DNA from: Flavipsychrobacter sp.
Lineage (GTDB): Bacteria; Bacteroidota; Bacteroidia; Chitinophagales; Chitinophagaceae
NCBI GenBank assembly: GCA_024508935.1
Contig: JANINW010000014.1
Location: 81,920-145,919, forward strand
DNA: 64,000 bases
Direction of reading: 5' to 3'
Shown here: positions 11,488 through 13,607 of the stretch, piece after piece
Position numbering within the stretch: position 1 is the stretch's first letter
How the letters are laid out: each line of letters begins with the position of its first letter
Position numbers and translations under genes: made by a program
Notes under the pieces: model-generated
The model's input: only the letters and a program-made list of their open reading frames with translations
Databases searched by the model: none
What the model was told of the DNA's origin: nothing

Positions 11488-11530
11488 TACAAAATCAAAA
11501 GTTAAAAGTAAAAGGCCACCTTGTTTTGAA

Positions 11531-13459
11531 TTAGCTTACTACTTCCCCTATTAAAGTAGCACCTGTCGATGCATGCACTTTAACGGTAGCATAGTCGCCT
11601 TTGTTCAGCCCGTGGTCTCCTTTAGGAAATACGACTACTTTGTTCTGGCTGTTGCGGCCACTCCAGTCTTTATCACTGCGCTTACTATTGCTTTCTATCA
11701 GCACTTTGAAGATCTTACCTATATCGCCGCTAAAGCTTTCGCGTGTATGGCTGTTTTGCAACTGTATGATCTCTTCCAGCCTGCGTTTTTTTACATCTTC
11801 CGGTACATCATCCTGGTAGCGGCGTGCTGCCAGTGTGCCGGGGCGCTCACTATAAGAGAACATATAAGAAAGGTCAAAGCGGCATATCTCCATCAGGCTG
11901 AGTGTATCCTGGTGTTCTTCTTCGGTTTCTGTACAAAAGCCGCTGATAACATCGGTGCTCAAACCGCAGTCAGGCATTATCTCGCGTATGCGTTTCACTT
12001 TATTTAAATACCATTCACGGGTATAGGTGCGGTTCATATGCTGCAGTATGCGTGTATTACCGCTTTGTACCGGCAGGTGTATGTATTCGCAAATGTTCTC
12101 GTATTTAGCCATTGTATACAGTACATCATCTGTAATATCTTTTGGATGCGATGTACTGAAACGAACGCGCAGCAGCGGGGAAATAGAAGCTACCATGGCC
12201 AATAGTTTGTCGAAAGTAATAGCCCCCTCCAAACCTCCCCCCAGGGGGGAGGCTTCGTGTTTTTTATTTTTATCTTGAAACCACAACGGTTTGTCTTCCC
12301 TTGTTTTAAGCGCGCTTTCTATTGTTGTAAGCACTTTCGAAAGGTCATTGATCACTTCTTCGTTTGTAAAACGAAGTACTTCAAAACCTAACTCTTTTAA
12401 TGCTTCTGCTCTTACTGCATCGCTCTCTGCATTTTCAGGATGCTGGTGTATTTTGCCATCAACCTCTATTATCAACTGTTTTTTTATACAAATAAAGTCG
12501 GCGATATACTGGGAGATTATATGTTGTCTCCTGAACTTATATTCACCTAATTGTTTTGCCCTTAAACTTTCCCAAAGTATAGATTCCGCTTTGGTTGGGT
12601 TGTGTTTATTTTGTTTTGCAAAATCTTTCAGAAGGGTATATAAAGCCGGGTTAGCAGTTTCATAACCAAATTCACTTTCCTCTACGATGCTTAGATCGTC
12701 CGTCTCGCTTATGGTCTTTAAGCCCTCCCCTTGGGGGAGGGTTTGGGAGGGGCTGTAATAATAACTATCCACATTCTGACCTAACAAGGTCACTTCACGG
12801 TAGCCTTTGTCAAACAGGTCTTTACATTCATTCACAATACTCTCCGCATCGCGGCTACGTTCGCGGCCACGTGTAAAGGGTACTACGCAGAAGGTGCACA
12901 TATTATTGCAGCCCCGCATAATGCTGACAAAAGCCGTAATGCCGTTGCTATCCAGGCGTACAGGCGCAATGTCTGCGTAAGTCTCTTCGCGGCTCAGCAG
13001 TACGTTCACTGTTTTTTGTCCCGTTTCGGCTTCTGTAACCAGGCCGGGCAGGCTACGGTAAGCATCGGGGCCTACTACTATATCTACCAGTTTTTCTTCC
13101 TCCAGGAACTTAGCCTTCAGGCGTTCGGCCATGCAGCCCAGTACGCCTACCAGTGTACCCGGCTTATTTTTCTTCAGTTTTTTAAATTCGGTGAGGCGCT
13201 GCCGTACGGTCTGTTCAGCCTTTTCGCGAATGGAGCAGGTATTAATCAGTATAAGGTTGGCATCTTCTACATTGCGGGTAGCACCAAAACCTTCTTCATG
13301 AAGTATGGAAGCAACTATCTCGCTATCGCTGAAATTCATCTGGCAGCCATAGCTTTCTATATAAAATTTTTTATTGTATTGATTAGGGTCGCCGGCAAAT
13401 GGGGCATAAGCTTCGCCCTGGCGTTGTTCATTTATTTCTTTTTGCAGCAGTTCTGCCAT
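11531..13459 (-). CDS. miaB: tRNA-2-methylthio-N6-dimethylallyladenosine synthase MiaB with an inserted DUF559 domain (ORF open to 13522; likely start 13459)
   Basis: [52 protein letters not shown] ... [16 protein letters not shown]; 178-aa insertion at residues 257-434 of the tracked ORF. Confidence 0.93.
12221..12254. repeat. left palindromic repeat of the DUF559 element
   Basis: AGCCCCCTCCAAACCTCCCCCCAGGGGGGAGGCT. Confidence 0.85.
12721..12754. repeat. right palindromic repeat (inverted copy) of the DUF559 element
   Basis: AGCCCTCCCCTTGGGGGAGGGTTTGGGAGGGGCT. Confidence 0.85.
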
Positions 13460-13555
13460 AATTTCCGATTCGATTGTTCGCAAAGGTAAGCATATTGAGT
13501 CTTTTCTTTCATCAAAATGCACGTTAAAAAAGACTTATAGGCATATAAATGCACA

Positions 13556-13584
13556 AAAAAATGCCCCGGTATCACCGGGGCATT
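13556..13584 (-). terminator. terminator downstream of the M16 gene
   Basis: AATGCCCCGGT-atc-ACCGGGGCATT followed by T-run on the minus strand. Confidence 0.8.
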
Positions 13585-13607
13585 TCCTGTTTTTATGTCA
13601 GTTTCTA

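Follow-up and report, generated by a model that had tools for sequence, protein, structure and literature searches.

Rickettsia palindromic elements (RPEs) are palindromic repeats that lie in frame within unrelated genes and are translated (PMC10969869, PMC3733652). They belong to a class tagged by CGTC, for which no dedicated transposase has been reported (PMC3733652, also the source of the definition of this tag for the REP superfamily). REPtrons (REPIN–RAYT or TnpA-REP systems) are composed of a gene for an HUH Y1 transposase placed between inverted, GTAG-tagged REP hairpins, with enzyme-free inverted pairs elsewhere in the genome. Vsr-like homing endonucleases of the EDxHD family (named as in PMC6083498), such as I-Bth0305I, insert recurrently, at one site per host gene. 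In inteins, nucleases are inserted in frame in housekeeping proteins. In fungal mitochondrial rps3, homing nuclease genes sit directly in a protein gene, with no intron around them; these organellar nucleases are of the LAGLIDADG type, they usually duplicate the displaced 3′ end, and they are not known to have palindromic ends.

Here we present a palindrome-bounded nuclease element within the miaB gene of Flavipsychrobacter sp., located in a 64-kb window (the whole stretch of DNA that was analysed; its genome is termed G000). Like RPEs, its non-autonomous relatives, solo 39-nt palindromes, lie in frame in unrelated genes, and they support the RPE precedent invoked in a preliminary description of this DNA; unlike RPEs, the complete element carries a nuclease gene, and its tag is C-rich, CGTC being absent. 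To our knowledge, RPEs encode no enzyme. The REPtron arrangement recurs, with an enzyme gene between inverted hairpins and enzyme-free inverted pairs elsewhere in the genome, but the enzyme is a DUF559 protein instead of an HUH Y1 transposase, the tag is not GTAG, and its copies frequently lie within genes, in frame. The element shares its predicted fold with I-Bth0305I and, like it, has entered host genes repeatedly, at one site in each; however, it is palindrome-bounded, lies outside any self-splicing intron or intein, and encodes a putative cleaving enzyme. It resembles inteins in occupying housekeeping proteins in frame, but no Hint splicing domain was found and the residues at its edges depend on the host. 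With the rps3 insertions it has in common a homing-type nuclease gene that lies in a protein gene with no intron around it, the palindromic ends being particular to the element described here. Each feature has a precedent (RPE palindromes, REPtron architecture and EDxHD nuclease), and none of these systems combines them. We found no prior account of in-frame DUF559 insertions, or of an association between DUF559 and palindromes, in the open-access literature.

The insert within miaB

The miaB frame is open on the minus strand from 13522 to 11531, and its likely start is the ATG at 13459. Its parts are as follows.

11531–13459, minus strand: miaB open reading frame with internal DUF559 element; ATG at 13459
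12755–13459, minus strand: N-terminal part of MiaB (UPF0004 and first part of the radical SAM core)
12719–12757, minus strand: left REP-like end, a C-rich tag and then hairpin CCCTCCCCCAAGGGGAGGG (model E = 7.3e-9; the match takes in 3 nt of host)
12221–12754, minus strand: palindrome–nuclease–palindrome element, 534 nt or 178 codons
12308–12628, minus strand: DUF559 nuclease domain; conserved residues E, D, EVDG and H intact
12218–12256, plus strand: right REP-like end, an inverted copy, AGCCCCCTCCAAA and then hairpin CCTCCCCCCAGGGGGGAGG (model E = 2.4e-10; the match takes in 3 nt of host)
11531–12220, minus strand: C-terminal part of MiaB from ITFDKLL (remaining radical SAM core and TRAM)

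The preliminary description had claimed a 178-codon insert that lacks Met and stop codons and encodes an intact DUF559 domain. All of this holds: excising the 534 nt fuses SYYY and ITFDKLL in frame, both kinds of codon are absent throughout the insert, and its match to PF04480 (115.1 bits, E = 1.8e-33, against a curated cut-off of 20.6) covers positions 4–108 of 109. Pfam recognizes UPF0004, radical SAM, TRAM and a complete DUF559 in the whole open reading frame, and the NCBIfam miaB model TIGR01574 matches two stretches on either side of the insert, well above its cut-off. The edges are inverted palindromes, as had been proposed (12221–12255 and 12720–12754 are 80% complementary), each end consisting of a C-rich tag (AGCCCCCTC.. 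/ CCTCACCCC..) and a GC hairpin. They form the sole significant full-length pair within the window under the palindrome model, which is partly derived from the right end of this very element.

Uninterrupted MiaB orthologues, suggested earlier as a check, are common. Among 60 relatives, only G010, a second species of the same genus, aligned to the insert-bearing MiaB over its full length (82%), and the insert is absent from the other 59; a third copy at the identical site came from a different genus (G361) in a search of 396 genomes of the family. The 28 of these 59 relatives that were inspected in detail have at this site a variable linker of about 3–18 residues between GQNVDSY and [VI]TF..LL, except G028, in which an inverted palindrome pair without a nuclease occupies the linker site in frame (locus L029). 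Thus, the flanks are near-contiguous in ordinary MiaB, as described, but the insert replaces a variable linker and is no clean addition to it, for which reason no target-site duplication is visible.

In a predicted structure of the fusion the MiaB fold is retained (7MJZ, E 2e-45; overall confidence moderate, pLDDT 67), and the nuclease appears as a separate folded domain with low-confidence linkers. The nuclease modelled alone (pLDDT 81) is closest to NGO0050 (3HRL; TM 0.89), a DUF559-like protein by sequence, and also resembles the catalytic domain of the homing endonuclease I-Bth0305I (TM 0.76, E 1e-4). The models predict a Vsr-like nuclease fold, its acidic and His residues are conserved, and both fold and residues suit a homing endonuclease.

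A family of in-frame elements and their palindromes

The MiaB insert, used as a query against the 396 genomes of the family (Chitinophagaceae), found matches in 176, and most of the best family matches lie in frames of 400–1300 residues; about 90 DUF559 loci were fetched and read. At the family level, in-frame DUF559 elements occur in at least 12 unrelated host families identified by HMM, namely MiaB, methionyl-tRNA ligase (MetRS), leucyl-tRNA ligase (LeuRS), the fused mutase IcmF, methionine synthase (MetH), chorismate synthase (AroC), CinA, adenine deaminase, tryptophan 2,3-dioxygenase, acetate-CoA ligase, an M23 peptidase protein and a DUF5522 protein. Of 296 genomes from the phylum Bacteroidota, 127 contain a relative, the closest again within long frames, and hosts assigned by reading the flanks in named genomes elsewhere in the phylum include IleRS and RecG, among others. 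The in-frame phenomenon extends phylum-wide in Bacteroidota, and DUF559 domains bordered by similar edge peptides, which the preliminary description had led us to expect inside unrelated proteins, are present there both in the family and beyond it. The MiaB insert belongs to a large and apparently undescribed family of palindrome-bounded elements in unrelated, often essential proteins.

For several hosts one site is reused across several genera, and LeuRS and IcmF have two insertion sites apiece. The residues at the element edges vary from host to host, and the edge peptides are one palindrome translated in different frames. A Met near the domain start is absent in 44 of 92 DUF559 domains, MiaB's included, and present in 48, so internal translation starts may occur across DUF559 loci in general. 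Of note, a single LeuRS open frame (L127, G258:C152) holds two DUF559 elements, and the IcmF loci L084, L088, L099, L102 and L110 carry extra palindromes, several of them solo, near the DUF559 element. A second, weak DUF559 match in the window's own genome (contig C18) was set aside as a different protein, of 279 residues, with a nuclease-like domain.

The best inverted-repeat score between the flanks beats shuffled sequences at 74 of 91 family DUF559 loci and at 37 of 48 DUF559 loci from named genomes. Compared with 1222 control windows drawn from the family loci themselves, 59 of 90 pass the 99th percentile. About a third of the family loci fall below the 99th-percentile control, some of them plausibly through divergence of their ends. 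The hairpin sequence varies among genomes, yet it usually matches across the two ends of one element. Four standalone DUF559 loci of Bacteroidaceae (L148, L154, L156 and L159) share an end that is longer, almost the same in all of them, and contains two hairpins (AGACCCCCTCTGCCC..GGGCATCTCCCCCTCTATGGGGAGA).

The palindromes also occur without the nuclease. A first model of mixed hairpin lengths, with no single structure, was replaced by an equal-length subset, and the counts obtained with it therefore refer chiefly to a single type of palindrome. The covariance model of the ends (R1) has matches in 128 of the 396 family genomes, and palindrome-positive and DUF559-positive genomes are associated across all 396 (odds ratio 8.5, p = 6e-20), an association that partly counts the elements themselves since R1 was built from their ends. 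Long open reading frames contain 36 of the 40 top-scoring palindrome blocks examined; a coding density near 90% puts many random positions in genes, and the telling part is that these frames remain open on both sides. Such blocks are mostly solo 39-nt units, in genes that read from their sequence as CarB, AlaRS, ArgB, GcvP and others. As with RPEs, the palindromic unit is present in frame in many unrelated genes. One solo palindrome (SGPLQTSPEGGGL; L233, G113) lies in a protein that we read as MtaB, a paralogue of MiaB, right after EIVLTGVNLGDF, in a region that corresponds by sequence to the MiaB insertion region and has similar flanks. The window's own genome contains two intergenic inverted pairs whose ends resemble the MiaB element's (G000:C19:122779-122844 and G000:C18:274337-274409), one of which directly precedes a frame that reads as nuoD.

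Movement, a putative partner enzyme and rival explanations

The DUF559 tree has most of the standalone copies on one side, and in-frame copies make up the rest. Within this rest the hosts are mixed: LeuRS copies are nested in the AroC clade several times, copies from MetRS, CinA and adenine deaminase are interleaved, and the three MiaB inserts are monophyletic. DNA similarity between elements of different hosts spans palindrome, nuclease and palindrome and stops near the palindromes, as between an AroC element (G415) and a LeuRS element (G410), which are 73% similar over 454 nt. Tree and alignments indicate that the elements jump between host genes. In same-host pairs, insert dS is mostly similar, broadly, to host-gene dS, so that short-term inheritance is mainly vertical, with the host gene. 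Insert dN/dS is 0.02–0.14 in those same-host pairs in which dS is unsaturated; the nuclease protein is therefore under purifying selection. Its catalytic residues are kept in 103–104 of 104 in-frame copies and in 13 of 13 standalone copies. One IcmF pair (L102 in G248 and L110 in G354) differs from most, its inserts being 93% identical at the amino acid level against 79% for the host protein, and a recent conversion is possible there.

At the MiaB site itself, the tree of MiaB with the insert left out places G010 as sister to G011 with full support, and G000 and G361 elsewhere. G010 and G011 are sister species whose miaB genes are 93.6% identical, and G011 has the ordinary linker. Their divergence is 11.7% over the 240 nt immediately upstream of the insertion and 5.0% outside this tract (p = 3e-4; the tract was chosen after the profile had been viewed), and the corresponding ratio in six other pairs is 0.76–1.45. 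The tract fits, suggestively at most, a gene conversion from an insert-bearing donor. Divergence of the insert between G000 and G010 is not below that of the host, so that an old insertion followed by repeated losses is possible as well.

The best explanation, which we consider probable, is a homing-like, palindromic mobile element that encodes a nuclease and is maintained as an insertion in a protein, translated along with it and left unspliced. The selfish, homing-like element of the preliminary description is strengthened by the family, the in-frame state and the palindromic edges; homing and the lack of processing are the parts of it that we infer. Its main rival, unlikely in our estimation, is that the palindromes owe their movement to something else, be it a RAYT/Y1 transposase or the repair system of the host, with DUF559 as cargo kept for another reason. 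Y1_Tnp genes are indeed common (302 of the 396 family genomes), and 29 genomes are palindrome-positive without a DUF559 match; however, the association of palindromes with Y1_Tnp is weaker than that with DUF559 (odds ratio 4.8), whereas the latter persists within Y1-negative genomes (odds ratio 10, p = 9e-4). RAYT was rejected as the palindrome-flanked mobility gene, since R1 has 0 matches across 20 Y1_Tnp loci, against 55 across 20 DUF559 loci. No Y1_Tnp match was obtained in the window's own genome, although the element and palindrome pairs occur there. Moreover, DUF559 genes of other phyla bear comparable ends: C-rich inverted palindromic ends flank 8 of 10 plasmid DUF559 genes from Cyanobacteria, Alphaproteobacteria and Deinococcus, and in the six plasmid records with controls 0 of 450 windows attain the score of the DUF559 locus. 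The DUF559–palindrome association thus reaches beyond Bacteroidota. Among these plasmid loci (L234–L243) are palindrome-flanked standalone genes from Cyanobacteria, Azospirillum, Sinorhizobium, Deinococcus and Sphingomonadaceae. Because the Y1 loci lack R1, the genome itself lacks Y1 and plasmid DUF559 genes have such ends, DUF559 is favoured as the putative partner enzyme of the palindromes.

That DUF559 is an old domain fusion, useful to MiaB and its other hosts and inherited as an ordinary domain, seems improbable. Purifying selection, an intact active site, the reuse of the same site in several genera and several hosts, and the monophyly of the three MiaB inserts would all be expected of it, but no shared function is apparent among its hosts, its presence is patchy (G010 with the insert, its close sister G011 without), and its ends are palindromes like those of mobile elements. 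Nuclease-free versions at the MiaB site (L029) and in a paralogue with similar flanks (L233) also speak against it. A fusion common to all relatives, with edges devoid of repeats, had been named as an outcome that would overturn the preliminary reading; instead, 59 of 60 relatives lack the insert and its edges are inverted palindromes. We give still less credence to removal of the insert before MiaB acts, by intein-like splicing, an RNA intron or translational bypassing. Conserved housekeeping hosts combined with a homing-type nuclease fold recall inteins and introns, and strong GC hairpins stand at the insert bounds. However, in keeping with the preliminary description, no intein machinery was found: neither Pfam nor NCBIfam returned a Hint/intein family, and an Rfam search of 11500–13600 gave no group I or II intron, its sole match being unrelated and below threshold. 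Edge residues differ between hosts. RNA splicing or bypassing would do without a preserved frame, yet the in-frame loci keep it across both junctions. The MiaB product is most likely one unspliced chain. An assembly or chimera artefact, or a frame break at the junctions, is negligible as an explanation, given identical junctions in G010 and G361 and the same architecture at scores of other loci.

A proposed mode of persistence

In the mobile-element reading, one branch of the elements would have turned into an internal, translated protein domain, its palindromes read through as flexible linkers rich in Pro, Gly and Ser. Because they can be translated in this way, the element would need no promoter, start or stop of its own, and the host gene would supply its expression. 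It would persist at in-frame landing sites within loops or linkers of proteins that are expressed and often essential, where the sole tolerated way out would be a precise in-frame deletion. The nuclease is most likely tethered as a separately folded domain on the unspliced host chain. Being Vsr/EDxHD-like, it would most likely cut either DNA that carries the palindrome or the allelic site that is still empty, and repair of the break would copy the element, giving homing within a gene and occasional jumps between genes. The nuclease would in this way drive mobility, and it may also copy nuclease-free palindromes in trans.

The chances are about even, in our judgement, that a large class of transposase-less bacterial palindromic repeats owes its mobility to DUF559 nucleases, as the enzymes hitherto missing, with one Bacteroidota branch as an autonomous element that lives as an unspliced translated domain in essential proteins, a lifestyle undescribed before, and with non-autonomous relatives that rewrite host proteins by 13 residues each time. 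In-frame palindromes of Rickettsia and transposase-less REPs have been reported without a known mobility enzyme, and a palindrome-bounded nuclease, which occurs inside and outside genes in several phyla, makes that question testable. For annotation, DUF559 fusions are not necessarily functional domain combinations. A selfish gene could survive without promoter, start codon or splicing as a domain of an essential protein, and core enzymes would thereby acquire new loops and domains from DUF559 elements.
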